From positions 1 to 32,174 of the IMG/VR virus record IMGVR_UViG_3300035698_004831: a stretch of DNA of 32,174 nucleotides. One strand, written 5' to 3'. Below the pieces are notes generated by a model that worked only from the letters and a program-made list of their open reading frames with translations, ran no database searches and was not told the DNA's origin. Made by a program: the position numbers and the translations under genes. This document shows positions 1,614-31,323 of the stretch, piece by piece; positions within the stretch are counted from its first letter, which is position 1; each line of letters begins with the position of its first letter. This stretch comes from a virus.

Positions 1614-1622
1614 ATTATACCA
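1614..1622 (-). promoter_or_regulatory. Extended -10 promoter of the HNH gene
   Basis: TGGTATAAT lies on the minus strand with five bases (GAGCT) between the box and the ATG at 1608. No -35 hexamer is evident. Transcription would start at or next to the ATG, giving a leaderless mRNA. The same nine bases precede the other HNH gene at 5455. Confidence 0.5.
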
Positions 1623-1667
1623 TACTTTAATGTCTTTTTGGTTCAATGGTATTATTGGTAATTTCAT
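1620..1667 (-). pseudogene. Detached 5' end of the C39 peptidase gene
   Basis: ATG at 1667 follows directly on the TAG of the holin-like gene and encodes MKLPIIPLNQKDIKVW. This aligns with IKLPINPLSQKDVRW, the N-terminus of the peptidase read from the ATT at 997. After about 16 codons the similarity ends, exactly where the promoter and ATG of the HNH gene begin. The frame stays open through the HNH gene but in the wrong phase and encodes nothing recognisable. The two copies differ at many third positions (for example TTA CCA against CTC CCG), so this is not a fresh duplication. I read it as the original start of the peptidase gene, cut off by the endonuclease insertion. Confidence 0.7.
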
Positions 1668-1877
1668 CTAAGCTGTTATCTTTTTCCAAACCCAGTTAAT
1701 CCCACCAGTTATAAGAGCGCTCGTTATAATAGCCATACCCATTATTTTTCCCTTGAAGTCTTCAAGTACATCAACTCTGTTTTCTATTTTACCCATACGC
1801 TTATCCATTTTGCCTTCCATAGCAGAAACGATTGCATGGGTATCCTTCAACAAATCATAACTTGTTGGTTTTGCCAT
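1668..1877 (-). CDS. Holin-like protein (XhlA-type layout)
   Basis: This 69-residue protein has a charged N-terminal helix (residues about 8-42; EGKMDKRMGKIENRVDVLED), a hydrophobic segment (about 44-64; GMAIITSALITGGINWVW) and a short basic tail (KKITA). This order, an amphipathic or coiled segment followed by one C-terminal membrane helix, is that of XhlA-like lysis proteins. It lies directly upstream of the cell-wall peptidase, and its TAG abuts the ATG of the old peptidase start. An extended -10 box (TGCTATAAT) is seven bases before the ATG and no Shine-Dalgarno site is visible. Assignment as a holin or holin partner rests on layout and position, not on a diagnostic motif. Confidence 0.75.
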   Translation of the reverse strand: MAKPTSYDLLKDTHAIVSAMEGKMDKRMGKIENRVDVLEDFKGKIMGMAIITSALITGGINWVWKKITA

Positions 1878-1884
1878 TGCTTTA

Positions 1885-1893
1885 ATTATAGCA
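1885..1893 (-). promoter_or_regulatory. Extended -10 promoter of the holin-like gene
   Basis: TGCTATAAT on the minus strand, seven bases before the ATG at 1877. It faces away from the plus-strand TGCTAAAAT box at 1906-1914. The two -10 hexamers are separated by only 18 bp, so their upstream contacts would overlap and the two directions may compete. Confidence 0.5.
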
Positions 1894-1905
1894 GAAGAGA
1901 AGATG

Positions 1906-1914
1906 TGCTAAAAT
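1906..1914 (+). promoter_or_regulatory. Extended -10 promoter of the plus-strand gene at 1920
   Basis: TGCTAAAAT on the plus strand, five bases (AAACC) before the ATG at 1920, with no Shine-Dalgarno site. The match in motif and spacing to the minus-strand late promoters supports a real plus-strand gene here. Confidence 0.45.
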
Positions 1915-1919
1915 AAACC

Positions 1920-2231
1920 ATGGACCCAAATACAGGAAGTTTCGGAGCTGCAGCAGGAGGGCAGGGAAACGCCATTGCCCAAGCTATGCAACGAAGAGGC
2001 ATGGGAGAAGCTACATCTGAACAAATCACACCAGGAGCGCCCACAGCGCTTGAGAGGGGCGTACCGCAAAGTGTAGGAGCTAACCCTCCACAGGCTATCC
2101 CAGGCCAAGCACCACGCCAACAGGGACTTGGGGCGCCACCTACAACAGCAGAGAGCGAAATCATTGTGAAAGCATTAGATTCTAGATTAAAGACTCTAGG
2201 TAAACTTCAAGAAGCCGGAATACAGGTATAG
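1920..2231 (+). CDS. Gly/Pro/Gln-rich hypothetical protein on the opposite strand
   Basis: This 103-residue protein is rich in Gly, Ala, Pro and Gln up to about residue 78 and ends in a charged helix (ESEIIVKALDSRLKTLGKLQ). It is one of only two plus-strand genes seen. The overlapping minus-strand frame gives a Cys/Pro/Trp-rich product without protein character, whereas this frame has a low-complexity linker plus a normal helix. A promoter-like TGCTAAAAT lies five bases upstream. Its composition resembles small hypothetical phage proteins, but I know of no function. It and the next small gene form a divergent island between the lysis and tail genes. Confidence 0.65.
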   Translation: MDPNTGSFGAAAGGQGNAIAQAMQRRGMGEATSEQITPGAPTALERGVPQSVGANPPQAIPGQAPRQQGLGAPPTTAESEIIVKALDSRLKTLGKLQEAGIQV

Positions 2232-2251
2232 ATATAAACAGCCACATATAC

Positions 2252-2257
2252 TATAAT
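2252..2257 (+). promoter_or_regulatory. Possible -10 box before the 32-residue plus-strand gene
   Basis: TATAAT on the plus strand, nine bases before the ATG at 2267. No -35 and no TG extension is visible. The only ribosome-binding candidate is a weak AAGAGA. Confidence 0.3.
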
Positions 2258-2266
2258 TAAGAGAAC

Positions 2267-2365
2267 ATGATCTGGTTAGGAATGTTTATTGTGGTAATTC
2301 TTCTTTCTAGTTCCTTTTGGGGTCTTCTTGTTTTACTGATTCACAGAATAGACGAAAAATTATAA
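2267..2365 (+). CDS. Tiny single-pass membrane protein
   Basis: This 32-residue frame encodes one long hydrophobic helix (MIWLGMFIVVILLSSSFWGL, then LVLLIH) and ends with the charged RIDEKL. It follows the 103-residue plus-strand gene and converges on the minus-strand gene ending at 2360, so the two stop codons overlap by a few bases. A TATAAT lies nine bases before the ATG. The clean helix-plus-charged-tail pattern favours a real gene, perhaps a lysis or membrane accessory protein, but a frame this short could be chance. Confidence 0.45.
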   Translation: MIWLGMFIVVILLSSSFWGLLVLLIHRIDEKL

Positions 2366-4009
2366 TCCTCCTAGTGTGGCTCTTCCTAGGGTTGCCCTCC
2401 ATAGTCCTTTAGCAATCGTCTTTGGTAGCTTTATAGTAAATCTCAATAATGCTCTGTTCTGATACACTTCAGGTGCTGATATCTTTAGTACATTTATGGC
2501 TTCCTTGTACATAGTTTTTAATAATTTAGGGTTTAGTCCTTTACCTGTCTTTGATGATTGATTAAAAGCATCGCCTAAGAAATCTAGAACTTGTAATAAA
2601 TCTTCTGGGTTCTTGGCTCCTGCTATTAATTTTCTGTACTTCGCCATCGTATTTTCAAGAGCTGGTACCTTCTTAACCATAGCTTCACCGGCCTCAAGAA
2701 TAGGTTTGGTGTTAATTTTTACATTAGATAGTTTCTTCGCTGCTTCCTTCTGTGCATTGCTAAGTATTTTGCCCGGTGCTTTACTTTCTATCTTTTCTCC
2801 AATCTTAACTACCTTGCTCTTAAATCCACCTTTTGCTGTTTGCTCTACTACCTCTTCAGCAACTTCCTGACCACCCTTTTTAAGTAGCCTTTCTCCACCC
2901 TTTCTAATCAAATTTGCGCCACCTTTAACTAATGCTGGTAATTCTGCTGCAGCTGCTATTTCAGTTGCAACGCTGCCTGCACGTAGTATGGCTGGATCGT
3001 CAATTGATTTGCTAAATAGATCTTCTATGTTTTGTGCATTAATACCAACCTGATTAAGTGTATCCTCGGAGACTTGTAATAACCTCTCCCTCTGTTCTGG
3101 GTCGTCTACCTCCATGGCCTTATCAAAGGCTTTATTAGCCATTTTTATCGCATCTTCTTGCGATTTTACAAAATCATCTCCTGTTTCTCCTTTTAGTCCC
3201 AAACTTGCACCAATGTCTTGTGATAAATCAAGAGACGCTCCAAAGAAGAACTCTGTAATAGGATTTCGCTTCTTTTCCAAGTCTGGCGGGGTGTCTGCAA
3301 GACCAGGATCCTCATCAAGGCCGGGCTTTTCCGTCAACTCATCAACACCAATGCCTTGAGACCTAGCCACTGTGCCTATTTCTAGTTTTAATTTATCTAG
3401 TTTCGCTTGGCGAGTTTTTGGACCATCGAGAACACCAGGAAGCAACTTTTTAAATCTCTTTTCTTCATCTTTGTTTATAGCTGCACCACTTCTTAAACGA
3501 CCAATAATATCGGAAAGGTTCTCCTTCTCAAATTTTAATTCTCTTGATAGTCCTACTTTTGTACCAGCTAGCTTTAACCCGCCTTCAAGTCCCTCTTTTT
3601 CTGGTCTAGTATCGAGTATTTCCTCAAGCCTTTTTATGCTAGATGTTCCAGATGTAACAATTCCCCTTAATCTAGCTTTTGCTGCGGCTACATCTGTATC
3701 CTCGCCTTCTTCTTCTTGTGTTTCCGCAAATCCTTCCTCTAGGTCAATAAAGCTTTGGAATTGGCTAGCAGCGGATTTATCTCCTGCAGCCAAAGCCTTA
3801 CCTTTTGCTTGATATAAATCTTCTAAAGATGCACCAAAAGGATTAGTCGAGCTGGTTGTTTTTGTAGTAGAAGGGGGTGTGGTTGACACAGGCGCTTGTC
3901 CTGCTTGTGGAGGAGCCGGAGGAGCACCAGCATTATTTAACGCTTGACTGTATTCGTCATCGTTTACTTCTATTAATTGTCCTGATTGTGTATCGTAAAT
4001 TTGTGGCAT
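2360..4009 (-). CDS. Virion protein, possible DNA-ejection (internal) protein
   Basis: The chosen start (ATG 4009, MPQIYDTQSGQLIEV) is one base after the TAA of the upstream gene. An upstream in-frame start would overlap that gene by 65 bases. The 549-residue product has a Pro/Thr-rich linker (about 25-60), long charged helices, a hydrophobic helical stretch (about 340-360; AGSVATEIAAAAELPALV) and a basic Lys/Gly-rich C-terminal half. Large, helical, partly hydrophobic proteins late in a podovirus tail operon are often internal or ejection proteins. No family motif was recognised, so the role is inferred. The Lys-rich part could bind DNA or membranes. Confidence 0.75.
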   Translation of the reverse strand: MPQIYDTQSGQLIEVNDDEYSQALNNAGAPPAPPQAGQAPVSTTPPSTTKTTSSTNPFGASLEDLYQAKGKALAAGDKSAASQFQSFIDLEEGFAETQEEEGEDTDVAAAKARLRGIVTSGTSSIKRLEEILDTRPEKEGLEGGLKLAGTKVGLSRELKFEKENLSDIIGRLRSGAAINKDEEKRFKKLLPGVLDGPKTRQAKLDKLKLEIGTVARSQGIGVDELTEKPGLDEDPGLADTPPDLEKKRNPITEFFFGASLDLSQDIGASLGLKGETGDDFVKSQEDAIKMANKAFDKAMEVDDPEQRERLLQVSEDTLNQVGINAQNIEDLFSKSIDDPAILRAGSVATEIAAAAELPALVKGGANLIRKGGERLLKKGGQEVAEEVVEQTAKGGFKSKVVKIGEKIESKAPGKILSNAQKEAAKKLSNVKINTKPILEAGEAMVKKVPALENTMAKYRKLIAGAKNPEDLLQVLDFLGDAFNQSSKTGKGLNPKLLKTMYKEAINVLKISAPEVYQNRALLRFTIKLPKTIAKGLWRATLGRATLGGL

Positions 4010-4010
4010 A

Positions 4011-4964
4011 TTATCTTGTTGGAACCCATTCTGTACCAGTAAAATACCAATTTCCTGATGTAGTTCCTGCTCCACTGAATGGGGTTTGATTTGGTGAACC
4101 CAAGTATTGAGTTAAGTCACCAGTTCTAGTATCGCTCTGATTTTTAATAGCAGCTGATTGCCTGATTGCCTCATCTGTACCTAGCTTGATAAGCTCAATT
4201 TGCCTTTGATATTCATTTTCTGACATCGCTAATTGATTAGCTCTATCAAGTTCTCCCTGAGTAGATTGAAAGCCTTGACTCATTTTGGTCAATATTGTCG
4301 TTAACTCATTTTGTTTATCTTGACTATAATTAGCTTGTTCTCGTGCCAATCTATCCTGAAAAAGAGGGAGTTTTGCCTTATAAAAAGGTTCTAATTCTTT
4401 CGCTTGATCGGCTACTAATAGACCCAACCTTTCGTCCAATTCACCCTCTGCAAACTGTTGTTGACTAACTGCTTCTTGTGCTACAGGAGCTATTTTGCCC
4501 TGTTCTGAGGCTATTCTTTTTTGTAAATTAGGGGCAGATATACCAACTTGCTTAGAAATCGTCCCCTGTGTGCTTGGGATGCCTTTTAAGGTCTGTGTGA
4601 GGTCAAATGCTGACTGTCTTAGGGCTGGTAGCTGTAGGTCGCCTCCTATTCGCTCTGAGGCACTAGTAAGTGTTTCTTGTCCTGCTACTCTCTCGTCTAG
4701 AGCTGACAAAAATCCTTCTTCTTCTTTCTTTTGACTAGCAGCTAAAGCTGTACCACCTGGGGAGAAATTACTTGAAATAAACTGATACTCACCGCTTCCT
4801 GGATCAGCATCTATAGAAAAAGACTGCCCTGCTGTAAGCGGGGTATTTTGATCAACACCCATAAAACTACCCAAGACATCGGATCTGAAAGCAGCGCCAG
4901 TCTCACGCTGTATGTCTCTTAACGTTTTTCCTACAAATTGTTCTGGTACTTCAAATTGGGCCAT
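4011..4964 (-). CDS. Helical virion-associated protein, unknown function
   Basis: This 317-residue protein has a short globular N-terminus (MAQFEVPEQFVGKTLRDIQR), a central Gln/Glu-rich helical region (about 80-280), and an aromatic C-terminus (GNWYFTGTEWVPTR). The helical part carries many Gln and Ser residues, as in tail-lumen or ejection proteins. It lies just upstream of the 549-residue protein and downstream of a homing endonuclease inserted in the tail operon. The upstream bases (AATAATTTTAAAC before the ATG) contain no ribosome-binding site. I recognise no catalytic motif. Confidence 0.75.
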   Translation of the reverse strand: MAQFEVPEQFVGKTLRDIQRETGAAFRSDVLGSFMGVDQNTPLTAGQSFSIDADPGSGEYQFISSNFSPGGTALAASQKKEEEGFLSALDERVAGQETLTSASERIGGDLQLPALRQSAFDLTQTLKGIPSTQGTISKQVGISAPNLQKRIASEQGKIAPVAQEAVSQQQFAEGELDERLGLLVADQAKELEPFYKAKLPLFQDRLAREQANYSQDKQNELTTILTKMSQGFQSTQGELDRANQLAMSENEYQRQIELIKLGTDEAIRQSAAIKNQSDTRTGDLTQYLGSPNQTPFSGAGTTSGNWYFTGTEWVPTR

Positions 4965-4972
4965 GTTTAAAA

Positions 4973-5455
4973 TTATTGATAAGTAAAGTCAAAATCACGA
5001 AAATGTTTTTTTGACGCCTTTTCTCGTACTCTAATTGCATCTTCCTTGTTATAAAAATTGCCAAGACCTTTATTCTTTCCATCAACTTGGATATACGCAC
5101 ACCACTTGTTTCTATCTTTGGAAAAATAAACACCCTTTTCCTTACTGTAGCTATCCTTTCTTATTTTGCTATTTATTCTGTTTTGACTTGGCGTACACCA
5201 TCGAAGATTTTTCTTTCTATTGTCTAATTTATTTCTATTGATATGGTCAACATAATAACCGCTTGAATCTCCCATAATTATTTTATGAAGTATTATTGGT
5301 TTAGTTTTCTTTGTCTCAGAGTCATAAGTAGTCGTACGAGGATATCCTGCGGGCGACAGATGCCACCGTATCTTTGAAATCCAAGCAAAATCTTCATTAT
5401 CAATTAAAAAGAATTTATTCTTTCCCAGTTTCCCACTTAATTCAATTTTTTTCAT
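4973..5455 (-). CDS. HNH homing endonuclease with AP2-type DNA-binding domain
   Basis: This 160-residue protein has the classic two-part layout of phage HNH-AP2 endonucleases. An HNH core (about 55-95) contains ILHKIIMG, VDHINRNKLDNRKKNLRWCT and QNRINSK. A C-terminal AP2-like three-strand domain (about 105-155) contains KGVYFSKDRNKWCAYIQ and LGNFYNKEDAI. It is a selfish gene placed between two tail genes. Unlike most late genes here it has both an extended -10 box (TGGTATAAT, 5474-5482) and a Shine-Dalgarno site (AAGGAG) eight bases before the ATG. Confidence 0.92.
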   Translation of the reverse strand: MKKIELSGKLGKNKFFLIDNEDFAWISKIRWHLSPAGYPRTTTYDSETKKTKPIILHKIIMGDSSGYYVDHINRNKLDNRKKNLRWCTPSQNRINSKIRKDSYSKEKGVYFSKDRNKWCAYIQVDGKNKGLGNFYNKEDAIRVREKASKKHFRDFDFTYQ

Positions 5456-5473
5456 TTAGCACTCCTTGGTTTA

Positions 5474-5482
5474 ATTATACCA
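5474..5482 (-). promoter_or_regulatory. Extended -10 promoter of the HNH-AP2 gene
   Basis: TGGTATAAT on the minus strand. The leader from the likely start point to the ATG (5455) is about 12 bases and carries AAGGAG. The motif is identical to the box before the HNH gene at 1608, which fits endonuclease genes that bring or capture their own promoter. Confidence 0.5.
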
Positions 5483-5677
5483 CTAATGTTTTCTTACCCT
5501 CACGGATTTCTTTGAAAACTTGAACTTATGGGGGTTTTCCATCAATTTATTGAGTTCCTTGTCGCCCATATCTCCTACTTCTTCTTCGATAATCGGTTTT
5601 TGTTTATTAATTCTTATACCAATACTCTTACTAACTGCAATTCTACCGTCTGGAAATTTAAGAACTTTTGTTTTCAT
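5483..5677 (-). CDS. Small basic hypothetical protein
   Basis: This 64-residue protein has a basic N-terminus (MKTKVLKFPDGRIAVSKSIG), a short acidic middle (EEEVGDMGDKELNKL) and a basic end (KKSVRVRKH). Its ATG overlaps the stop of the 150-residue gene (ATGA), so it is probably translated by coupling. The homing endonuclease gene follows it directly. No family recognised. Confidence 0.65.
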   Translation of the reverse strand: MKTKVLKFPDGRIAVSKSIGIRINKQKPIIEEEVGDMGDKELNKLMENPHKFKFSKKSVRVRKH

Positions 5678-6126
5678 ACTGTTTGTGTTGTATCGTCTTG
5701 ATTTGTTATATATCTGTCTCTAACCTTAGCTAAAATAACGGTGGCTGCACCTGCAGAGATATTCCTAATATATATATGAGTAAGAACTGCATAATATGGA
5801 ATTTCCTCATCTGCGCCTATATCTGTGAATTTTTCAACACCTGTCCACTCATTCCAAGGACCGATTATTTGAAACTCACTTGCTGTGATTGAAGCTCCAA
5901 ATGGTATTAAGTTCGCTTCTGCTACAGAGGTCTGATAAAGACTAATCTCTGGTTCAACCATTATATTTGCATCATTGTTATTAATAATCAAAATATCCAA
6001 GATTGTTTCATCACCATTATTGAGCGTAACTGAGGCTGATCCTGTACTTTGTAATTTAATTACATCGCCAAGACCTCTATTTTTAACAGCAGCGGGTTTT
6101 ATATTTCTTTGTGATACTCTGACCAT
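5674..6126 (-). CDS. Tail/virion beta-rich protein, short paralogue
   Basis: This 150-residue beta-rich protein is a paralogue of the next gene upstream. Both share a QRxxKPxAxV start, SLYxTSxxEANLIPxG, ASxxQIIGP, an IYIRN-type strand and a C-terminal RYIT-x2-DD motif. The pattern suggests a compact beta-sandwich, perhaps a tail or adhesin subunit. It lacks the middle domain of its longer relative. A TACAAT-like -10 box lies eight bases before the ATG and there is no Shine-Dalgarno site. Its function is not known to me. Confidence 0.75.
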   Translation of the reverse strand: MVRVSQRNIKPAAVKNRGLGDVIKLQSTGSASVTLNNGDETILDILIINNNDANIMVEPEISLYQTSVAEANLIPFGASITASEFQIIGPWNEWTGVEKFTDIGADEEIPYYAVLTHIYIRNISAGAATVILAKVRDRYITNQDDTTQTV

Positions 6127-6127
6127 A

Positions 6128-7108: not shown

Positions 7109-8952
7109 TATTCATTATATCCTTCTTCTGCATTATCATTAAACAATACTTCGTGTTGAGTGAGTTTCGGGAAAGTTCCGCCACTGCTGGTAATGGTGAA
7201 TCCAGCCTCCAATTCCTTAAATCTTTTGTTAAATAAGTCTTTTGCCCTTCTATCTCCAACCGTACTTGCAGCAGTTCCGGCAGTAAAAGAGGCTGTTCTC
7301 TCTAGCTTGCTTTTATTTGTGATTGTTTGACCAGACGCGAGGGCTTCAAACGTAGACACTTGGTGAACAAATGTTTTGCTTTTATCTGTATCTCCGTTAT
7401 CAAAAATAAGGCTAGAATATACACCAGAGGTTGCAGCGGAGGCGCCCGGAGGGATTTTATCTACACCGTAAGTTGCGTTATCTCTCCAGCTGAAATAAAT
7501 ATCATCTCCGAAGACTTTAACCATTCCATATTTTAGAGTAGTCCCTTGCGTTGTACCAGTAGAGACAATATGTAAAAGTGTCAAAGCCTCACCAATCACT
7601 GTATTTTCCGAGCCGAAGGCATATATACCTTGTTCTAATCCAGTTGAGTCATCTGTAGACCCACTGACACCAATCAATACAATTCCGTCTAGGTTTGATA
7701 TGGCACCTGGAAAGATATTTAAAACCTTGCCTCTTGCTAGTTTGGGTATTTTCTCAAATATCTTATTGATAGGCTCTAGTCCTTCATATAATCCACCTGT
7801 ATTCCCATAAACTCCCAATATTCTGTTTCCTATATTCGTAATGGCGTTATTTGCTCCGATTGAGGATGTATCGTAGGGAATGTTAAACGAAGGTGATATT
7901 GTATCCCAAAGGAAAACTCTAGACTCTTCCGCTTCATCTACAGTTGCTCCCTTATAACAAGTTACAGCGATATATTCATCTATCTTTGCAATCGATCTTA
8001 CTTTAAATCCTCTTTCTAATAATATTTTATTTGGATCATAAGTAGCTTGATCAAAAACTGCTAAATATGAATCGTTTCCGATAATTAGCTTGTCTTCGAC
8101 TACTACCATTGGGTGAAACTCAGATGAAATCAATACACCGTACTCAACGACAAACTCTGCACCCTCTAAATCCGTATTTACATCCGTATCAACTCCACCA
8201 TCTGCTACAGTTGTTGTTACATGGAAATGGTAAGAATTGCCAATAATCAATCTTAAGGCAGTTGCAAAAGTAAATGTTATATCTGCTACCGTTACACTTG
8301 CAGCGGCTATTGTTTTAGCACCAATTAAGTTATTTTCTGCATCGTGAACCGTAACTGTCCAATCTCCGGTACCATCGTCATCAACATCAATAGTTATTTC
8401 TTTTAATGGATCAAGTGCTGCCGTGAATGTCTGCCTATGTGTGGCCCCCTCGTTTACAGCAGTTGTTGTTGTGTAATCAGTACCTCCTGTGCCTCCGCCT
8501 GTTGTTTGAATGTCTGATATAGCTGCATCCCACCACGATGTTAAATCATCATCAAAAGCAGGAGTTCCAGTAAGTCTTCCATATCTGCCAAGCTCTATAT
8601 CTAAGGCGTAATAGGCATAATCATCAAATATAGACAAACCTTCACCTGCACAGCCCGAAACTGTTCTTAGCGATGACCACACATCTGCGCTTGTTTCTCT
8701 ATAAAACTTACCCCCATCTGACAAAAAGTATTTATTAGTATCGTAAGGGCTTCCATCAACAGCCCAATATATTAAATCCGTTACGTTTGCGCCTGATACT
8801 TTAGTCGGAGCCTTAGAAAGCGTGATGTAGTCGGGGGATTCAAAGGGGTTCAGATTCTTAATAAACCTAGCAGTAAAGGGTTTGTCTTTTCTTTCTCCAA
8901 CAGTACCTATGGCACCAGATGTGTCTCTAATCGTGAGTTTTTGTTCCGTCAT
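7108..8952 (-). CDS. Beta-rich tail protein (T7 gp12-like nozzle or P22-like tail protein, putative)
   Basis: This 614-residue protein starts with a motif common to podovirus tail proteins of this type (ERKDKPFTARFIKNLNPFES) and continues with many short strands that alternate with GND/DG turns: KYFLSDGGKFYRE, DDYAYYALD, VVEDKLIIGNDSYLAVFD, KIDEYIAVTCYKG, KVFGDDIYFSWRD. Such repeats suggest a beta-propeller. An Asp/Thr-rich insert (about 155-270; TTGGGTGGTDYTTTT, ITIDVDDDGTGDWTV) looks like an added beta-sandwich. The layout fits a tail nozzle protein next to a connector-like gene. TATAAT lies five bases before the ATG. The family assignment is an inference from pattern, not from a diagnostic motif. 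Confidence 0.75.
   Translation of the reverse strand: MTEQKLTIRDTSGAIGTVGERKDKPFTARFIKNLNPFESPDYITLSKAPTKVSGANVTDLIYWAVDGSPYDTNKYFLSDGGKFYRETSADVWSSLRTVSGCAGEGLSIFDDYAYYALDIELGRYGRLTGTPAFDDDLTSWWDAAISDIQTTGGGTGGTDYTTTTAVNEGATHRQTFTAALDPLKEITIDVDDDGTGDWTVTVHDAENNLIGAKTIAAASVTVADITFTFATALRLIIGNSYHFHVTTTVADGGVDTDVNTDLEGAEFVVEYGVLISSEFHPMVVVEDKLIIGNDSYLAVFDQATYDPNKILLERGFKVRSIAKIDEYIAVTCYKGATVDEAEESRVFLWDTISPSFNIPYDTSSIGANNAITNIGNRILGVYGNTGGLYEGLEPINKIFEKIPKLARGKVLNIFPGAISNLDGIVLIGVSGSTDDSTGLEQGIYAFGSENTVIGEALTLLHIVSTGTTQGTTLKYGMVKVFGDDIYFSWRDNATYGVDKIPPGASAATSGVYSSLIFDNGDTDKSKTFVHQVSTFEALASGQTITNKSKLERTASFTAGTAASTVGDRRAKDLFNKRFKELEAGFTITSSGGTFPKLTQHEVLFNDNAEEGYNE
7114..7119 (-). promoter_or_regulatory. 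-10-like box before the 326-residue gene
   Basis: TATAAT, five bases (GAATA) before the ATG at 7108. It also encodes YN of the C-terminal GYNE of the upstream protein, so it may be partly fixed by coding. It has the same spacing as at 1608, 8952, 14174 and 16558. Confidence 0.35.
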
Positions 8953-8957
8953 AACTT

Positions 8958-8963
8958 ATTATA
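8958..8963 (-). promoter_or_regulatory. -10-like box before the tail protein gene
   Basis: TATAAT, five bases (AAGTT) before the ATG at 8952. It overlaps the stop codon of the homing endonuclease gene (GTA TAA). No ribosome-binding site is visible. Confidence 0.4.
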
Positions 8964-9390
8964 CTATGTTTGGTTTAAACCCCTTTGGTTGAATCAATTT
9001 GTTGTCATAGTCGTATTGTTTATGACACGAAGCACATAACCGTTGCCAATCATTCAAATCTCTTTTATATTTATGGTCTTTGTTTGACCAATGCATCCCC
9101 ACCTTATTGTCACTAATTTTTCCGCAAAAGTCACAAACATTTGGCGTACCCATTATTCTCTTTACCCACGAATGTATCGAGGATTGACTAGCTTTGTCAC
9201 CCTTCCACGCTGGATGTTTATCACCAGTTATTTGGGGAATCTTCTTTCCTTTATAAAAACCCCACATTTTTTTTAGTGCCTGAAGTTGTTTGGGAGTTGG
9301 CTTTCTTCCCTTACTTGCTTTACCAATTTTTTTTAGTGCTTCTTTTGTATGAATGTGTCCTTTTACAAACCTACCTTGTTTGTCTCTCAT
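8959..9390 (-). CDS. HNH homing endonuclease with NUMOD3-like N-terminus
   Basis: This 143-residue protein has a basic N-terminus with NUMOD3-type motifs (GRFVKGHIHTKEALKKIGKA, SKGRKPTPKQ), which in this group bind DNA. The nuclease part (about 65-130) has CDFCGK, HWSNKDHKYKRDLNDWQRLC and CASCHKQYDY, so two zinc-binding Cys pairs frame the HNH fold. It lies between the connector-like gene and the tail protein gene, a typical place for a free-standing homing endonuclease. TAAAAT is six bases before the ATG and no Shine-Dalgarno site is present. Confidence 0.9.
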   Translation of the reverse strand: MRDKQGRFVKGHIHTKEALKKIGKASKGRKPTPKQLQALKKMWGFYKGKKIPQITGDKHPAWKGDKASQSSIHSWVKRIMGTPNVCDFCGKISDNKVGMHWSNKDHKYKRDLNDWQRLCASCHKQYDYDNKLIQPKGFKPNIV

Positions 9391-9396
9391 CCATAT

Positions 9397-9402
9397 ATTT
9401 TA
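9397..9402 (-). promoter_or_regulatory. -10-like box before the NUMOD3-HNH gene
   Basis: TAAAAT, six bases (ATATGG) before the ATG at 9390, preceded by GTG. Weaker than the TATAAT boxes but with the same near-leaderless spacing. Confidence 0.3.
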
Positions 9403-9421
9403 CACCATCTACCCACTATTA

Positions 9422-10318
9422 TCAACTGATGGTTTTTGACCAAAGGAAACTGACATTTTGGTTGCTTCTTCTGGCCATGTTGCGTTTGATTAAGCGTTTG
9501 TCGCTACGACTTGCGTACTTCTTTATACCTCTATCCACAATTTTCTGATACATATTTTCCCACTTATCTGCAGTTACAGAGTCTTTGCGTGGTCCTCTAA
9601 AGTAATCGGAAGTTGTGCCGTGACTCAATGCCTGGTGGAGCTCTGGTGGGAGCTCAGGGGATTCTCCTAAAGTGTAAGCCTGTCCTGCACCCGTTGTACC
9701 TTGAAATTTAGAATCTAGTTCGATAATGCTTGTACTGGTAAAACTCGTAACTCTATACCAATAACCATCTGTGTCCGATTTGATGAAACGTCCCACCATT
9801 AAAGCTGTGAAGGATGTTGCAGAGTCAGTAACAGTTGCGTCATCATTCGTAAATGTAGCTGTTCCTGTTATGTCTGCGGTGGTTAAACTCCTATCTCTAT
9901 AATGAGATCCAAAGTTAATTGTATAAACAGCATCAGGTATAGGACATAATAAATAATCATCTCGTCTTGGGAAGATGTGGGTTGGATAATTACTAATGGT
10001 TACATAGTTTAAGTGGTCCCAAATTAGCTGTGAATTAACTACTTGGAGAGGAATATTTTGATCTCCAATATCAACATTTACAGCTTCGACATTAACTATT
10101 CCTGGTGGGTAATCATAATTTGCCTGATCTGCAACAGTTGACTTTGTTGTAGGAGGAGCTTCTGTTTTGTAAGTAGTAAACTGAGATAAAAGGTCTTGGT
10201 AACGTGTACCTAGATGCCTATCATGGAATGCTTTTAACGTAGTATCCGTAGAGCCTGGATTGCCAGTATTATCTCTAAAATCTGCCCAAAGATTTGTGTA
10301 GGTTAAGCGAATAGTAAT
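9422..10318 (-). CDS. Connector/adaptor-like virion protein with ATT start
   Basis: The first ATG (9799) would give only 125 residues, but the frame is open from a stop at 10331-10333. The upstream part is clearly protein: RLTYTNLWADFRDNTG, YDYPPGIVNVEAVNVD, PTHIFPRRDDYLLCPIPDA. It has no ATG, GTG, TTG or CTG codon. GAGAGGAG lies just before AAT ATT, and ATT at 10318 gives (M)TIRLTYTNL, a natural N-terminus. The 298-residue product follows the order of a common phage structural protein placed between head and tail genes, with MVGRFIKSDTDGYWYRVTS and ELPPELHQAL near the C-terminal half. A head-tail adaptor is the best guess. The coding region is well supported; the ATT start less so. Confidence 0.75.
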   Translation of the reverse strand: MTIRLTYTNLWADFRDNTGNPGSTDTTLKAFHDRHLGTRYQDLLSQFTTYKTEAPPTTKSTVADQANYDYPPGIVNVEAVNVDIGDQNIPLQVVNSQLIWDHLNYVTISNYPTHIFPRRDDYLLCPIPDAVYTINFGSHYRDRSLTTADITGTATFTNDDATVTDSATSFTALMVGRFIKSDTDGYWYRVTSFTSTSIIELDSKFQGTTGAGQAYTLGESPELPPELHQALSHGTTSDYFRGPRKDSVTADKWENMYQKIVDRGIKKYASRSDKRLIKRNMARRSNQNVSFLWSKTIS

Positions 10319-10358
10319 ATTCTCCTCTCTTTAGTAAGTTTGATGAGCCTCATACTTC

Positions 10359-10367
10359 ATTATAACA
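10359..10367 (-). promoter_or_regulatory. Extended -10 promoter of the ATT-start connector gene
   Basis: TGTTATAAT just after the stop of the LamG protein gene. The leader to the ATT at 10318 is about 34 bases and contains the strong ribosome-binding site GAGAGGAG, so unlike several neighbours this transcript would not be leaderless. Confidence 0.45.
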
Positions 10368-11141: not shown

Positions 11142-11336
11142 CTATACCCACCCCCGCCAAGAACAAACGCCGCAAGCAGCTCTCCTAAGCTGTGGGTACT
11201 CAGGATGGTTGGTAGAAGGCTTAAGAATCATCATTTCACCTTTACACCCTTTTTCGGTACAAGCTATACCAGATTTTAGAAACTCCTTTTTAGGTGTTTT
11301 TTCCTTTTGATGTGTTTCGTATTTTTTTAATTTCAT
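11142..11336 (-). CDS. Small zinc-ribbon protein
   Basis: This 64-residue protein has a Lys-rich N-terminus and two Cys pairs, CTEKGC and CGVC, spaced like a zinc ribbon, with a closing WRGW. It lies between two structural genes with one or no spacer bases, so it is part of the late operon. Small zinc-ribbon proteins recur in this genome (23553, 28654, 31639). No function can be named. Confidence 0.7.
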   Translation of the reverse strand: MKLKKYETHQKEKTPKKEFLKSGIACTEKGCKGEMMILKPSTNHPEYPQLRRAACGVCSWRGWV

Positions 11337-11337
11337 A

Positions 11338-13020
11338 TTAGTCTGTCATTGATACATACGAGACGATTCCGTGTACGTTAATAGCTGCTGTTAGTTCCAA
11401 GTTTAACAGAGTTGCCGCAGTTCCCACAAACCAAGGTTGAGGACCAATAGGCATTACGAAACCTTCACGAGCCTGCAAAGGCTCTTGGCCAGTTTTGGCT
11501 GTTCCTCCCGCACCGTCTTCCCACCTTACATCTGTAGTTCCGTCTGAAATAATTACACATCCAAGAACAGCGATCCTTATCCCTGCTCCCTTTGCAGCTA
11601 CTATTGTGTTATCTCCACTTGTAGATGTGTTGATAGCGGCACTTTCAACTGCGTATCCATTCCAAGTAGCAATTCTTCCTTGTCTATCAAAAGCTGCATT
11701 AACTCTATCGTTATCAGCTACTTCTTCAAGAGCAGCAGTAGGCTCTTGGGCCTTACCACCTATTTTTATAGGATTTCCAGCATCTACCGCATCAGAAGCC
11801 TCATCTCCTGTTATTTGAGCAGCAGCATTTAGCATTGTTAATCCAGTAATAGCTGACAAAGTTGAAACCGTAGTAACTGTTCCTGAGCTAACAACTACAT
11901 TGTGTCCATCTGCTAACTGACCAGCTGAAGTTGCGAAACCTGATATTGGAGAACTCTCTGTTACTGTCAAAGGAGTCATGCTTGCGATACCCTGTATTGT
12001 CAAAACTGCTACATCTGCTGTGCCTGCTGTTCCAGAACCTCGTACATAGACCTCGTTACTGATAATATTGTCTATCGTTACGGCATGTCCATCTGCAAGT
12101 TGTTTTGCCGAAGTTGCAAAACCTGTTAGTGGGGTGCTTTCTGTTACTCCTATTGTTCCCTCTTGTTTAACAATTACATTTCCCTCTTTAGTAACAGCAA
12201 TTGGTGTGTAGTCTTTATCTCCTGTACTTAGATCGGCTTGGTCTTCATTCTCTACTGCTAGGGCCATTACTCCTACATCACCGGTTGAATGAGCAGCATC
12301 TTCAGCTTTACCTAAGTTGGCTGCTGCTGTTCCTGGTGTAAGAGAAGTTGTTCCTGTTAAGGTTGTTACTGTGGTAATAGTACCAGAGCTAACAACTACA
12401 TTGTGCCCATCTGCTAATTGCTTCGCAGAGGTTGCTAAACCAGCTCCATCTGCGACTATATCTACTTGCATTTGACCTGCTGCCACTGCACCAGCCACAA
12501 CTGTAGTATCTGCTAATATTGCATCTGAATTGAAATCTTGTGTCCACAAAGCACCCTCTGCGCTTGATCTCATTCTTACCCAATCTCCTGCTACTGGAGT
12601 CAAGGCTGTAATAATATCGTCTCTTTCCATTAACCCCGCCACTCCTGTTGCGGGATCAGGCGCTACTGCGTTAGTTGCATATTCAGTTCCACCACCACCA
12701 CCGGTAACATGTAAAGCACCGGTTGAATTTGTTCTTAGTGGGACAAAATCTCCATCAGCAGGCGTGAGAGCAGCTAAGGCATCGTCTCTAACAGCCAGAG
12801 TCATCGTACCTGTGTTTCCGTCAGCATAGGCCACGTTTGTGGCGTATTGTGTGCCTCCACCGAAGGTTGTTATCTGTGTTCCATCTCCATCAACAATAGA
12901 AACATCCATTGCGATAGCATTTGTAAGATTTTGCCCTGTAACAGCTCGCGTTGTTTCAGCAACATCATCCCAGATTACTAATGATGTTATATAGTTTTGT
13001 GTTCTTTTTGCTTCAGCCAT
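11338..13020 (-). CDS. Repetitive beta-rich decoration or fibre protein
   Basis: This 560-residue Ala/Thr/Gly-rich protein contains at least three copies of the segment FATSAKQLADGHNVVVSSGT or a close variant, and two or three copies of a unit with RDDxxxALTPxxGDxVxxR and a GAL(H/W) turn. Such units recur in phage decoration and fibre proteins. The C-terminal third (TSTSGDNTIVAAKGAGIRIA, WFVGTAATLLNLELTAAINV) reads like a separate beta-sandwich head domain. The ATG at 13020 is chosen; a GTG seven codons upstream would lie in a terminator-like hairpin. A TGTTATAAT promoter lies upstream of that hairpin. Confidence 0.8.
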   Translation of the reverse strand: MAEAKRTQNYITSLVIWDDVAETTRAVTGQNLTNAIAMDVSIVDGDGTQITTFGGGTQYATNVAYADGNTGTMTLAVRDDALAALTPADGDFVPLRTNSTGALHVTGGGGGTEYATNAVAPDPATGVAGLMERDDIITALTPVAGDWVRMRSSAEGALWTQDFNSDAILADTTVVAGAVAAGQMQVDIVADGAGLATSAKQLADGHNVVVSSGTITTVTTLTGTTSLTPGTAAANLGKAEDAAHSTGDVGVMALAVENEDQADLSTGDKDYTPIAVTKEGNVIVKQEGTIGVTESTPLTGFATSAKQLADGHAVTIDNIISNEVYVRGSGTAGTADVAVLTIQGIASMTPLTVTESSPISGFATSAGQLADGHNVVVSSGTVTTVSTLSAITGLTMLNAAAQITGDEASDAVDAGNPIKIGGKAQEPTAALEEVADNDRVNAAFDRQGRIATWNGYAVESAAINTSTSGDNTIVAAKGAGIRIAVLGCVIISDGTTDVRWEDGAGGTAKTGQEPLQAREGFVMPIGPQPWFVGTAATLLNLELTAAINVHGIVSYVSMTD

Positions 13021-13029
13021 GTTTTTAAC

Positions 13030-13052
13030 AAAAAAATCCACCTAATGGTGGA
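13030..13052 (-). terminator. Terminator-like hairpin directly before the repetitive decoration gene
   Basis: On the minus strand TCCACC-ATTA-GGTGGA is followed at once by seven T. It lies downstream of the 355-residue gene and ten bases before the ATG at 13020. It is also downstream of the TGTTATAAT box at 13072-13080, so it may act as an attenuator as well as a terminator. Confidence 0.7.
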
Positions 13053-13071
13053 ATATATTTTCCGTTAATTT

Positions 13072-13080
13072 ATTATAACA
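13072..13080 (-). promoter_or_regulatory. Extended -10 promoter upstream of the hairpin
   Basis: TGTTATAAT in the intergenic gap between the 355- and 560-residue genes. Transcripts from here would start near 13065 and meet the hairpin and T-run within about 35 bases. A second TATAAT lies two bases upstream of it. Confidence 0.45.
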
Positions 13081-13106
13081 TTATATTGGAAAATCCTGAT
13101 TTGTTA

Positions 13107-14174
13107 TTAGTTCTTGTTAGTATGCTCGTACCAGTCTAGATGAATTTCGTGTAAATTAGTACTTGCACCTATGTTTTGAATGAATAAACCATATTTCTTA
13201 CCAGCCTTTAACATCCACTCTTGGGATGACCTTGCTGTGCCACCAATAGCTTTTGGTCCAGCACCTGCTACTAATTGAACGTGATCAAGTAATGTTACAT
13301 AGGAAAAATTGGCGAGTGCTAGTTGTGCCTCTGTCATCCATGTTGCAGACCCAACTGTAGGAGTAGCTTGGAGGGACATAACAACACTTGTGTTCGCAGT
13401 ATTTCTATTTCTATCAAGTGCAACTACTTGAGTTCCCTCATCATCATCTATTGTTACATCTTCCACCAAAAATGCTTCTGCTGCGCTTGAAGCAGAACCC
13501 TGTATAATAAGGTGAAGCCATTTTGCTCCGCTTGGTGTTTCAAACCCTACAAAAGTCCTGTCATCATCAGAACTAAGAGTAGTGTTGTCAATGTGAACAG
13601 CAAATGAACTTCCAGCATGTATTTCGTGGTGTTCGTATTCTATTATAGTAGCAGCCTCAGTTGAAGCATCTTGTGCGTAACGGTCATATTCTCCATAAGG
13701 TGCGGTTTCACCCTGACCGCTAGTATTTATATCCCATTGGTGTCCGTCTGTATCAAATATTCCTATTGGTCTTGTAAAAATGTATCCCTCTGTAGAGCCT
13801 TGTTGTCTTATCCAAGTACCATCTGTTTTTGACATTACATAATTTTCAACGATCTTTAATGGTAAGACTTGTGAGATTGCAATACCATCATCATCAACAT
13901 CCTCAACTTCTGTACAATCAACAGGTAAGGGATGAATATCACTTGTAGCATAAATAGTATCCCCGCCGCCCTCAAACATGAGAACTCCGCCTGAAATAGT
14001 CGCATCTGTGTCTCCTTCTGTGTATTCTGCGGGTGGACCACTGGTGATAATAGCATCAACTCTCAGTCTATTAGTTGCTGCTGTTAATTCCGCTGCTAAT
14101 GGAGTCTCGCCATCTGTGGATGATACGCCAATTAAAGTAGTTATAGCGTTAGCATCATGTATTGCTCTTCCCAT
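13107..14174 (-). CDS. Head decoration-like structural protein
   Basis: This 355-residue protein has an N-terminal part with DGTWIRQQGSTEGYIFTR, which resembles the repeat of the 560-residue neighbour (GDWVRMRSSAEGALW). Its C-terminal half has EYEHHEIHAGSSFAVHIDN, VVALDRNRNTANTS, TPTVGSATW and EWMLKAGKKYGLFIQN, and ends LDWYEHTNKN. This series is familiar from phage structural proteins that form trimeric spikes or decorations near capsid genes. TGATATAAT lies five bases before the ATG without a Shine-Dalgarno site, and a terminator hairpin follows. The virion role is likely; the exact position is unknown. Confidence 0.8.
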   Translation of the reverse strand: MGRAIHDANAITTLIGVSSTDGETPLAAELTAATNRLRVDAIITSGPPAEYTEGDTDATISGGVLMFEGGGDTIYATSDIHPLPVDCTEVEDVDDDGIAISQVLPLKIVENYVMSKTDGTWIRQQGSTEGYIFTRPIGIFDTDGHQWDINTSGQGETAPYGEYDRYAQDASTEAATIIEYEHHEIHAGSSFAVHIDNTTLSSDDDRTFVGFETPSGAKWLHLIIQGSASSAAEAFLVEDVTIDDDEGTQVVALDRNRNTANTSVVMSLQATPTVGSATWMTEAQLALANFSYVTLLDHVQLVAGAGPKAIGGTARSSQEWMLKAGKKYGLFIQNIGASTNLHEIHLDWYEHTNKN

Positions 14175-14179
14175 GATTC

Positions 14180-14188
14180 ATTATATCA
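14180..14188 (-). promoter_or_regulatory. Extended -10 promoter of the 355-residue gene
   Basis: TGATATAAT on the minus strand, five bases (GAATC) before the ATG at 14174, in a 33-base gap that has no ribosome-binding site. Confidence 0.5.
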
Positions 14189-14207
14189 TCTGTGAAGTAG
14201 ACGAAAT

Positions 14208-14738
14208 CTAATCGCCTAACATCTTATTGAGCTTCTTGAGTTTCTCTAATCTCTTTGTTTCAAGTGCGTCTAACTGTATCTTTCTGTCTCTAAGTAGCTC
14301 TTTTTCCTTTTCTTGTAGCTTTCCCTTTCGCGATAAGCTGTTGGCTTTCTCGGTTAAAGCATCTTCTCGTTTTACTATCTCGTCTTCTCTATCCTGAAGC
14401 CTTCTGACCTTGTTAAGACTTTTTTGAAGTGTTGTTTGAAACTCTTTCATTTCGGTCATCTGTTCCGTAAAATCTTTCTTTTGTTTTTTTATCACGGCTG
14501 TATCTCTAGTGACTTTCTTTCTTGCTTCTACGATCCGTTCCGTTTCGGTATCTAGGGCTTTTTCCTTTTTAATACTCTCGTCTTGTTTTACTACCAAGGC
14601 GCGTTCTTTTTGCACGACTATATCATGCTGTCTTTTGATAGACTTCCCTTTATCTTCTAAGATTTCTGCTTGTTTAATGATCCCTGCAAAAGAGTCTATA
14701 ACTACCTGTGCTTGTATTTTTAGTTTTTCTGTATCCAT
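14208..14738 (-). CDS. Long coiled-coil protein
   Basis: This 176-residue protein is almost wholly alpha-helical with heptad-like Leu/Ile/Val spacing and alternating Lys and Glu (residues about 25-170; RQHDIVVQKERALVVKQDES, LQDREDEIVKREDALTEKAN). Such proteins in head-tail gene blocks can be fibre shafts, scaffolds or measuring rods, but it is far too short for a tape measure. The start overlaps the stop of the upstream gene (TAATG), so translation is probably coupled. Confidence 0.75.
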   Translation of the reverse strand: MDTEKLKIQAQVVIDSFAGIIKQAEILEDKGKSIKRQHDIVVQKERALVVKQDESIKKEKALDTETERIVEARKKVTRDTAVIKKQKKDFTEQMTEMKEFQTTLQKSLNKVRRLQDREDEIVKREDALTEKANSLSRKGKLQEKEKELLRDRKIQLDALETKRLEKLKKLNKMLGD

Positions 14739-14986
14739 TAGATTTCAACTACGATCTCTGCTAATAACTTCTTCTTTAGTTCTGGGTCTGCCTCTAGTGC
14801 TATTCCGTTCAATTGCCTATCGTTTATTATTTGGTTATATACTTTCTTTATAATATGTTCAGCATAAACATCCTTTATCTCAGTAATCTCTCCTGCCGGT
14901 AAAGAGAACGTCTTTGGATTTTTTCCATGTATATCGTACTGAATGGTGATATCTTCTAAAAGGGGATTTCTAATAAGTTTAGTCAT
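14738..14986 (-). CDS. Small hypothetical head/connector-region protein
   Basis: This 82-residue protein has the pattern of a small capsid-region protein: a short beta-rich N-terminus (ITIQYDIHGKNPKTFSLPAG), a helical middle (DVYAEHIIKKVYNQIIND), and an acidic helix at the end. The stop of the upstream gene overlaps its start by several bases and its own stop overlaps the coiled-coil start. No family recognised. Confidence 0.7.
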   Translation of the reverse strand: MTKLIRNPLLEDITIQYDIHGKNPKTFSLPAGEITEIKDVYAEHIIKKVYNQIINDRQLNGIALEADPELKKKLLAEIVVEI

Positions 14987-15149
14987 TTTCTTCCAACTCC
15001 TCTAGTCTTTTGAGAATAACAAGAAGAATTTTATGACTAACTTTGCTATTTAGTTTGTTTTCTTGATCTAATAGACGAAAGGTTTCATCCCAATCATCTT
15101 TTGCGATCTGTACCCCTAATATGTCTGATACTTGTTGTCTAATTTTCAT
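14979..15149 (-). CDS. Small helical hypothetical protein
   Basis: The start is placed at ATG 15149 (MKIRQQVSDILGVQIAKDDW), which overlaps the upstream stop by 11 bases; an earlier start would overlap much more. The 56-residue product is helical and acidic at its end (LKRLEELEEND). It is part of a chain of overlapping small genes between the head and decoration genes. Confidence 0.65.
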   Translation of the reverse strand: MKIRQQVSDILGVQIAKDDWDETFRLLDQENKLNSKVSHKILLVILKRLEELEEND

Positions 15150-15804
15150 TTTGAGATATACGATCCATAAGTACTTGTTTTTTGTCTGTTTTGCTGGTTT
15201 CAATACCCATTTCTTTAGCCACTTTTCTTAATTGGGGTTGGTTCATCTCTTCCAATGGTGTTTTTGTGGTACCATCAGTCGTTTTTTGCTCGATAGGTGC
15301 CTTAGGTTCCTCCACAGGAGCTCTCTTGCCTAGTAATTCGGTCATCATATCCTCGTGTGTGTCAGGTTTAGCCACGCTTTCTTTCTTTGATAGTTTGTCT
15401 ACTCCGTACTCTTTAACAAGTCCAACATAGAGTTTTCTATAAATCTTCATTCTTTCTTCTGGGTTGGAAATTCCTTTTTCTAGTGCAAATTTGCTTTCTA
15501 AGTTATGCTGTGCTTCACCGGTCCACTTTTCCATCTCTTTTTGACCGAGTTCCTTACGTCTCTTGTTTTCTTTTTCTATCTCTTTCTTTTGTCTTTTCCC
15601 TAATATCAAATTAGCCATTTCCTTCAGATACTTGTCTGTCTTGAAGGTAGAGAGATCGGCTGTTCCATTGGCCGGAACAATATCTACATATGAATCCCAT
15701 ACTAACTCGAAGTCCTCATCTCTGATGTTTTTAACACGATGAGTATCTTGACTACGCCTTTTCATTTCCCTGTGAATTAAGCTCTGGTCTTTTTGGGCTG
15801 CCAT
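15139..15804 (-). CDS. Charged structural-region protein with SAP-like C-terminus
   Basis: This 221-residue protein has an N-terminal globular part (DEDFELVWDSYVDIVPANG), a very charged central helix (KRQKKEIEKENKRRKELGQK), a Lys/Pro linker, and a C-terminal two-helix motif (NQPQLRKVAKEMGIETSKTD, then KKQVLMDRI) that resembles a SAP or Rho-N type nucleic-acid-binding domain. It lies in a chain of overlapping genes. A DNA-contacting head or connector role is possible, but this is inferred only from the C-terminal motif. Confidence 0.7.
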   Translation of the reverse strand: MAAQKDQSLIHREMKRRSQDTHRVKNIRDEDFELVWDSYVDIVPANGTADLSTFKTDKYLKEMANLILGKRQKKEIEKENKRRKELGQKEMEKWTGEAQHNLESKFALEKGISNPEERMKIYRKLYVGLVKEYGVDKLSKKESVAKPDTHEDMMTELLGKRAPVEEPKAPIEQKTTDGTTKTPLEEMNQPQLRKVAKEMGIETSKTDKKQVLMDRISQNEN

Positions 15805-16022
15805 TATGATGTTTTTATTTCTCCGTTGCTTCCCTTAACTGGTGACACTTTTACCCACCTAGTTGTAAACTTAGGAGGATCGATAACCAATCCACCATCT
15901 TCCATTCGTCTTACTGCTTGGGGGCTGTGCATAATTTGAAGGTCAACATTCTTTTTCTTTAAGAAATCCGTAACTTCTTTTAATTCCTTTGGAGTTATTG
16001 TTGCTGGGTTAATCTTTGACAT
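15804..16022 (-). CDS. Small hypothetical protein
   Basis: This 72-residue protein has an N-terminal helical part (TPKELKEVTDFLKKKNVDLQ) and a Trp-containing strand (FTTRWVKVSPV). The next gene starts on its stop (TAATG). It is preceded by TGTTATACT (16042-16050) at a distance of 19 bases from the ATG. No family recognised. Confidence 0.65.
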   Translation of the reverse strand: MSKINPATITPKELKEVTDFLKKKNVDLQIMHSPQAVRRMEDGGLVIDPPKFTTRWVKVSPVKGSNGEIKTS

Positions 16023-16041
16023 ATATTTGTCTTATTAAAAT

Positions 16042-16050
16042 AGTATAACA
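16042..16050 (-). promoter_or_regulatory. Extended -10-like box
   Basis: TGTTATACT on the minus strand, 19 bases before the ATG at 16022, in the short gap after the 168-residue gene. It may start the four-gene overlapping set that ends with the coiled-coil gene at 14208. Confidence 0.35.
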
Positions 16051-16051
16051 C

Positions 16052-16558
16052 TTAATTACCAGAGTCTGCAACTGATCCGTCTGAACTGATAGGATTCCAA
16101 ATCGCAAAAAAGTCAATTACACCCGAATCTGTATCGTTTCCACCTGAAACAGTTAAAATTATGTCCTGACCATTAAGAGTATATAGAGGGAGATTGCCAG
16201 TGCTATCATCTTCTTGTCCGAGAATGAAGTATGCCGCAGGAGTTGCACTGTTAAACCAAAACTCACCGGCATCTATATCCGTATCGGTAGTTTGAGCATT
16301 GTAGATTGCAGTTGCTCCGGCTATTCCTGTTTCGAGGGTAGCTCCACCTGCCAATAAAGTAGTACATACTCCCAATATGCGTGCCTGAACTACACCTGTA
16401 ACCGTAAATATAGCTCCACCATCTAAAGCCCCACCGTCATTGCCCCAAGCGTCAGCTGTGGCTCCGGCAAACGTAATGGTTTTCTTGGTAATAAGACCAA
16501 GGTTAGTAATTGGTTTATTGTTAGCGTCTAGGTAGAATGATTCTGCTATTTGTGCCAT
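16052..16558 (-). CDS. Small decoration-like capsid-region protein
   Basis: This 168-residue beta-rich protein has VTGVVQARILGVCTTLLAGG, ATLETGIAGATAIYNAQTTD, TDIDAGEFWF and DIILTVSGGNDTDSGVIDFF. These strings follow the order of a frequent phage structural protein found near capsid genes. TGTTATAAT lies five bases before the ATG, with no Shine-Dalgarno site. Its virion role is likely but not proven. Confidence 0.75.
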   Translation of the reverse strand: MAQIAESFYLDANNKPITNLGLITKKTITFAGATADAWGNDGGALDGGAIFTVTGVVQARILGVCTTLLAGGATLETGIAGATAIYNAQTTDTDIDAGEFWFNSATPAAYFILGQEDDSTGNLPLYTLNGQDIILTVSGGNDTDSGVIDFFAIWNPISSDGSVADSGN

Positions 16559-16563
16559 GACTA

Positions 16564-16572
16564 ATTATAACA
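16564..16572 (-). promoter_or_regulatory. Extended -10 promoter of the 168-residue gene
   Basis: TGTTATAAT on the minus strand, five bases (TAGTC) before the ATG at 16558. A TTGACC lies 19 bases upstream of the TATAAT, the best -35 candidate among these sites, although the spacing is long. Confidence 0.5.
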
Positions 16573-19637: not shown

Positions 19638-19661
19638 AAAAAAACTCCCCGGATGGAGAGT
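19638..19661 (-). terminator. Terminator-like hairpin before the major capsid gene
   Basis: On the minus strand ACTCTCC-ATCC-GGGGAGT is followed by seven T. The stem has one U-G wobble that would be a C-A mismatch in plus-strand RNA, which supports function in minus-strand RNA. It lies 14 bases before the capsid ATG and downstream of the promoter at 19682-19711, so it resembles an attenuator. Confidence 0.65.
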
Positions 19662-19681
19662 ATATTCTCGTGTATGTCCTT

Positions 19682-19711
19682 ATTATGAACTCTGTCTATG
19701 GGTCGTGTCAA
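19682..19711 (-). promoter_or_regulatory. Sigma70-type promoter of the major capsid gene
   Basis: TTGACA, 18-base spacer, CATAAT. It sits in the scaffold-capsid gap, with the likely start near 19675. It is the best two-part match in the window. The leader of about 50 bases contains the hairpin and T-run, and lacks a clear ribosome-binding site. Confidence 0.6.
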
Positions 19712-23551: not shown

Positions 23552-23557
23552 ATTATA
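23552..23557 (-). promoter_or_regulatory. -10-like box before the portal gene
   Basis: TATAAT, six bases (TAACAT) before the ATG at 23545, overlapping the stop of the zinc-ribbon gene (GTA TAA). A TG pair is directly adjacent upstream. No ribosome-binding site. Confidence 0.4.
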
Positions 23558-31311: not shown

Positions 31312-31323
31312 CGTTATATTTAT

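Follow-up and report, generated by a model that had tools for sequence, protein, structure and literature searches.

We analysed a virus record of IMG/VR, IMGVR_UViG_3300035698_004831, whose full 32,174 bases are called the window here and carry nearly all genes on the minus strand. Several of its genes start a few nucleotides (nt) downstream of a TATAAT-like -10 box, and the same arrangement recurs in related phages. Very probably, two kinds of gene start are combined in this family of uncultured phages: extended -10 promoters that would give leaderless mRNAs, and a second class (class B), in which the promoter is followed by a hairpin leader that would act as an attenuator. The box sequence, its spacing, the TGn extension, the lack of a -35 element and of a Shine-Dalgarno (SD) site, the recurrence in relatives and the covariation of two hairpins in the class B leader (P1 and P2) were observed directly. 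From the sequences, we infer the transcription start positions (+1), translation without a leader, transcription by means of the host sigma factor, attenuation and a Patescibacteria host. The second start class is new, while the leaderless -10 architecture is already known from other bacteria.

TATAAT boxes directly before start codons

An earlier note on this DNA had described -10 boxes placed for leaderless mRNAs and proposed a count against shuffled sequence. The window holds 40 TATAATs in total. It has 6 matches to TATAAT-N5-ATG where 0.48 would be expected, and at least 6 matches were reached in 0 of 100 dinucleotide shuffles. TAWAAT-N5-ATG gave 8 matches (1.38 expected, equalled in 0 of 100 shuffles) and TGNTATAAT gave 7, every one on the minus strand (2.07 expected, 0 of 100 shuffles). 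All nine boxes listed in the note at 5 to 7 nt from an ATG were found, five of them with TGn. The extended boxes are TGGTATAAT at 1614..1622 (minus strand; 5 nt before the ATG at 1608 of the HNH endonuclease gene 982-1608), TGCTATAAT at 1885..1893 (minus; 7 nt before ATG 1877), TGCTAAAAT at 1906..1914 (plus; 5 nt before ATG 1920), TGATATAAT at 14180..14188 (minus; 5 nt before ATG 14174) and TGTTATAAT at 16564..16572 (minus; 5 nt before ATG 16558). The four boxes without TGn, all on the minus strand, are TATAAT at 7114..7119 (5 nt before ATG 7108, inside the final codons of the gene that precedes it), TATAAT at 8958..8963 (5 nt before ATG 8952), TAAAAT at 9397..9402 (6 nt before ATG 9390 of an HNH-like gene) and TATAAT at 23552..23557 (6 nt before ATG 23545 of the portal gene). 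The promoters of 1877 and 1920 are divergent and face apart across 42 bp (1878-1919).

Relatives were gathered via the capsid protein, which yielded about 40 related loci with identities from 81% down to about 27%. After removal of duplicates, the distance from TATAAT to each ATG opening a reading frame of at least 50 codons was counted; start codons in genes without annotation were set by rule. The distances peaked at 6 nt: 19 boxes at 5 nt, 77 at 6 nt, 19 at 7 nt and 13 at 8 nt, which makes 128 at 5-8 nt, against mostly 1-10 (about 4) per position elsewhere. GTG and TTG starts in the relatives' records showed no such peak, and the control phages 80alpha, TP901-1, lambda and P23-45 had no TATAAT at 5-8 nt from an ATG. 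Among all 4096 hexamers TATAAT ranked first at 5-7 nt before ATG (95 matches; the SD hexamer AAGGAG 42), its anagrams mostly reaching 1-15 matches, with 40 for ATAATT, which is TATAAT shifted by one base. TGn preceded 64% of the 128 boxes near an ATG versus 11% of the 614 TATAATs without a nearby ATG. No -35 signal was detected at the clade sites (2.86 of 6 positions matched versus 2.95 in shuffled sequence). The free energy of SD pairing averaged -1.5 at the leaderless-type starts (class A), -2.5 at random positions and -3.3 at other genes, and a strong SD was present at 9%, 12% and 25%, respectively. Of the earlier proposal, the extended -10 without -35, its spacing, which would put +1 on the A of ATG, and the missing SD are borne out and recur across the relatives. 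Its statement that the early genes have clear SD sites is weakly supported, and SD use is not higher there: a strong SD (free energy of -6 or lower) precedes 3 of 15 early genes, compared with 5 of the 20 other late genes and one of the 7 leaderless-type genes of the window. Among orthologous genes of the closest relatives the box keeps its place near the start, whereas the flanking sequence varies; in the portal gene, for example, it lies 6, 6 and 9 nt from the start in the window, L003 and L004. On the capsid tree the trait is present on most branches and missing in a few.

Six nucleotides from the -10 box to the A of ATG is the usual distance between a -10 element and +1, so that the usual start would fall on this A, and with +1 at the first codon the mRNA is predicted to have no leader. 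The boxes would then be extended -10 promoters, read without a -35 element by a primary holoenzyme of the sigma-A/sigma-70 type, with transcription beginning at the A or within about 3 nt of it. The ribosome would take the 5' AUG directly, without SD pairing, and each site would open a short transcription unit, either a single gene or a small operon. On this point the earlier note had gone further, proposing that late genes are transcribed singly. This is supported only in part, since between these promoters there are many late genes whose starts overlap or abut.

Several observations weigh against this reading or limit it. The relatives' sites partly share descent and are not fully independent of each other, and the related records are often fragmentary. 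Five relatives (L006, L009, L018, L019 and L030) have no strict TATAAT site at 5-8 nt. Moreover, the window prefers a spacing of 5 nt, the relatives 6 nt, and with 5 nt transcription would have to begin on the sixth base past the box. Single sites in the window, above all 7108, 8952 and 9390, which have no TGn, may be weak or due to chance. Chance or composition in an AT-rich genome as the source of the whole set would draw on the 40 TATAATs of the window and on matches inside coding sequence (7114-7119, and a TAAAAT match at 7522-7535), but it is contradicted by the shuffles, the anagrams, the control phages and the roughly 40 relatives. We regard it as refuted for the set, with a probability close to nil, and as possible for single sites.

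The hexamer might also be no promoter at all and instead, as part of an unstructured AU-rich stretch, aid the loading of ribosomes on longer transcripts. AU-rich upstream stretches aid SD-less initiation in other bacteria, and SD sites are indeed absent at these genes. Yet the hexamer is exact, its spacing is 6 nt and its AU anagrams are far rarer; furthermore, we know of no meaning of an upstream TGn for ribosomes. This explanation is very unlikely.

As judged from its motifs, the architecture is that of the leaderless genes of Deinococcus-Thermus and Actinobacteria, with what appears to be an ordinary extended -10 of the sigma-A type. Leaderless genes with a -10 adjoining the open reading frame (ORF) have been inferred widely (PMC3160421), and in Deinococcus reporters such a -10 drives leaderless expression (PMC12340547). 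Shared with these systems (PMC3160421, PMC12340547, PMC3898074) are a -10 placing +1 at the start codon, a spacing requirement, the lack of SD and a dispensable -35. Unlike them, the phages studied here are AT-rich, have the full TATAAT plus TGn and use ATG only, and among their orthologous genes the leaderless start alternates with the hairpin-leader start.

Sigma factors and the late genes

The earlier note had considered a phage late sigma factor, as in T4. Such a factor, or one that displaces sigma region 4 (like gp39 of P23-45 or AsiA of T4), would direct the polymerase to promoters that consist of a -10 only and make them late. A strong TGn-10 without a -35 would fit, as would the higher site density in the structural module, and in the Thermus phage P23-45 gp39 leaves extended -10 middle and late promoters, likewise of a class without -35, active (PMC7403470). 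However, a search of 27 related records, many of them fragments, gave no match above cut-off to Sigma70 region 2 or region 4, only weak sub-threshold ones, and region 2 is absent in the window. The motif is identical to the plain sigma-A/70 consensus TATAAT and thus differs from the T4-type late promoter TATAAATA, to which the earlier note had likened it. Sites also occur outside the structural module, and many capsid promoters keep TTGACA. No gp39 homologue is known in this family, though a sigma-remodelling factor of that type has no detectable signature and might be present. Over 50 kb of P23-45 the TATAAT-to-ATG test gave no peak. Altogether, we consider a phage-encoded late factor unlikely.

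The 22-kb structural module held 53 leaderless sites over 330 kb of sequence (1.6 per 10 kb), a higher density than elsewhere (24 in 237 kb, 1.0 per 10 kb, among them GroES of relatives). The word "late" for these genes therefore describes a tendency and not a rule. Terminators upstream of the leaderless promoters were not clearly enriched (5 of 103 versus 10 of 454 controls).

A hairpin leader between promoter and start codon

Three further genes that the earlier note had listed with the leaderless promoters, those starting at 5455, 13020 and 16022, do have a -10 box but not the leaderless spacing. At 5455, TGGTATAAT (5474..5482, minus) lies 18 nt before the ATG of an HNH gene with AGGAG in between, a leadered start. 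For 16022 the box TGTTATACT (16042..16050, minus) lies 19 nt upstream and leaves a short leader without SD. The gene 11338-13020 belongs, like the major capsid protein gene (18538..19623, minus; phrog_9953, 1.9e-18), to class B, which the earlier note had not recognised. In this class, TATAAT is followed after about 19 nt by a terminator-like hairpin and a U-tract, and the ATG comes 0-15 nt later.

This leader is most pronounced before the major capsid gene, which it precedes in most relatives (L003-L040): TTGACA in many of them, TATAAT, a terminator-like hairpin with a T-run and an ATG mostly 0-35 nt further on. Of 100 such hairpins across the clade, 81 stood no more than 60 nt, and mostly no more than 15 nt, upstream of an ATG; for those 81 we counted 55 TATAAT boxes ending 15-24 nt upstream of the stem. 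The promoter-hairpin-ATG pattern was not seen in the four control phages. Upstream of the terminator-like hairpin P2 there is a mini-hairpin of 3-5 bp, P1, with an AU-rich loop and the consensus GGn-AAUUUA-nnCC. With its 3' arm P1 reaches into the 5' arm of P2; P1 begins 5-13 nt past the -10, mostly 7-11, and so at the extreme 5' end of the predicted RNA, at about +1 to +5.

Both hairpins are supported by covariation. In the decisive test for P1, which was position-fixed and swapped 5' arms between sites 1000 times, the mean pairing score was 8.45 versus 5.44 after swapping (standard deviation 0.36, maximum 6.76 of 1000); with arms swapped within one genome only, it was 8.34 versus 6.64 (maximum 7.87). 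P2 showed compensatory changes at all five of its consensus pairs. A covariance model finds both window copies and copies in relatives, and matches none of the four control phages and neither of the two distant phages described below; since the sequences used for building include those copies, its hits are a check of specificity rather than an independent discovery. A scan of four sources, namely the window, L003, L004 and L014, gave no Rfam match at gathering score.

Upstream of gene 13020, the extended -10 TGTTATAAT (13072..13080, minus; 52 nt before the ATG) is followed by the leader at 13030..13067 (minus; P1 13050-13063 with GGAA/TTCC, P2 13037-13052, seven Ts; 35.7 bits with covariance model R1). 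The capsid gene has a promoter at 19682..19711 (minus) with TTGACA at 19706-19711, 18 nt and CATAAT at 19682-19687, and its leader spans 19638..19674 (minus; P1 19656-19669 with GAGA/TCTC, P2 19644-19661, seven Ts, ATG 19623; 23.9 bits).

The class B promoters would start RNAs that carry P1 at about +1 to +5, then the overlapping P2, the U-tract and the AUG. The covariation of P1 and its overlap with the terminator stem give the leader the look of an attenuator, most likely one in which P1 and P2 are mutually exclusive, and this is the likeliest role that its sequence suggests. The main rival, a real possibility, is that it is a stabilising 5' stem-loop that protects against 5'-end-dependent decay, or else the terminator of the upstream operon. 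P1 begins at about +1 to +5, and 5' hairpins at such positions protect mRNA; the U-tract, however, has no part in mere stabilisation, nor does stabilisation fit the overlap of P1 with the P2 stem. A terminator of an upstream operon would need no -10 at 15-24 nt before its stem and would not lie 0-15 nt before an ATG. In L019, moreover, the ATG directly follows the T-run, so that the capsid gene cannot have a promoter of its own downstream of the hairpin and its mRNA must pass through.

Like RAT/LicT-type attenuators, in which antiterminator and terminator hairpins overlap, and like pR'-tR'-Q of lambda, the putative attenuator combines a terminator close to the promoter with an overlapping hairpin that excludes it, but here the leader is only about 39 nt long, occurs in several copies per genome and lies directly before late-gene ATGs. 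Tentatively, and with considerable doubt, one might go further: numerous individual promoters of two kinds that can replace each other, leaderless and pR'-tR'-like, would drive the structural genes, the 39-nt RNA with its two exclusive hairpins halting transcription before the ATG until some factor favours P1, so that late expression in a Patescibacteria phage would be switched by distributed antitermination. The hairpin leader is a small RNA element that had no match in our Rfam scan and stands before the capsid gene of most phages of the family; it lends itself to in vitro tests that need no cultured host.

Phage family, host and other genes

The window encodes a terminase, a portal-like protein, the major capsid protein, GroEL, GroES, HNH endonucleases, an RNA ligase and an RlaP-type nucleotidyltransferase. 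Homologues of both capsid and portal were present in only 2 of 50,697 phage records, the TM7 (Saccharibacteria) phage DolZOral124_53_65 (MG269973) and the unassigned phage MW202566, with identities to the window of 27-28% (capsid) and 25-27% (portal) and with GroEL in both. These distant phages have 2 and 0 leaderless sites, respectively, and no class B leaders; a search for relatives of the two gave one contig for one and none for the other. As the capsid and portal matches are limited to them, the host of the family is probably an ultrasmall member of the Patescibacteria, which is suggested rather than proven. In a literature search we found no report of leaderless genes in Patescibacteria, and a search with a 16S probe pattern turned up no viral contig. 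One family contig, L040 (JANLHC010000032.1), is binned in a metagenome-assembled genome of Candidatus Scalindua. We rejected this host, as TATAAT-N6-ATG was not enriched in the assembly (12+25 versus 15+25 in the reversed control), and L040 is therefore probably misbinned.

Knowledge of where transcription and translation begin in Patescibacteria or their phages is very scarce. If the host does belong to this group, its polymerase would read plain TGnTATAAT promoters and its small ribosome would start on leaderless AUGs, and simple rules, open to testing, would follow for predicting and expressing genes in this group. Current gene finders built on SD motifs may misplace such starts.

The earlier note had also assigned a box to a gene at 10318. 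This box, TGTTATAAT at 10359..10367 (minus), exists but lies 5 nt before the ATG at 10353 of a 16-codon ORF in another frame. The long frame upstream of 9799 (region 9422-10367) is open to about 10318 without ATG, GTG or TTG; this may point to a frameshift, an assembly error or a gene that starts at ATT and has an SD (GAGAGGAG). The homologue in L004 has a normal start with TATAAT-N5-ATG.

Three HNH-type genes (982-1608, 4973-5455 and 8959-9390) sit among the structural genes, each with its own -10 near the start (at 5 nt, at 18 nt plus SD and at 6 nt), as if they were mobile homing endonucleases that brought their own promoter. Genes for a T4 Rnl1-type RNA ligase and the RlaP-type nucleotidyltransferase adjoin at 26145-27826 and form a probable RNA (tRNA) repair pair. 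The GroEL and GroES genes (29173-31335) are divergent; within the phage collection, the copies nearest to this GroEL share about 39% identity with it, and the likely ATG of GroES, at about 31311, has a TATAAT 12 nt upstream.

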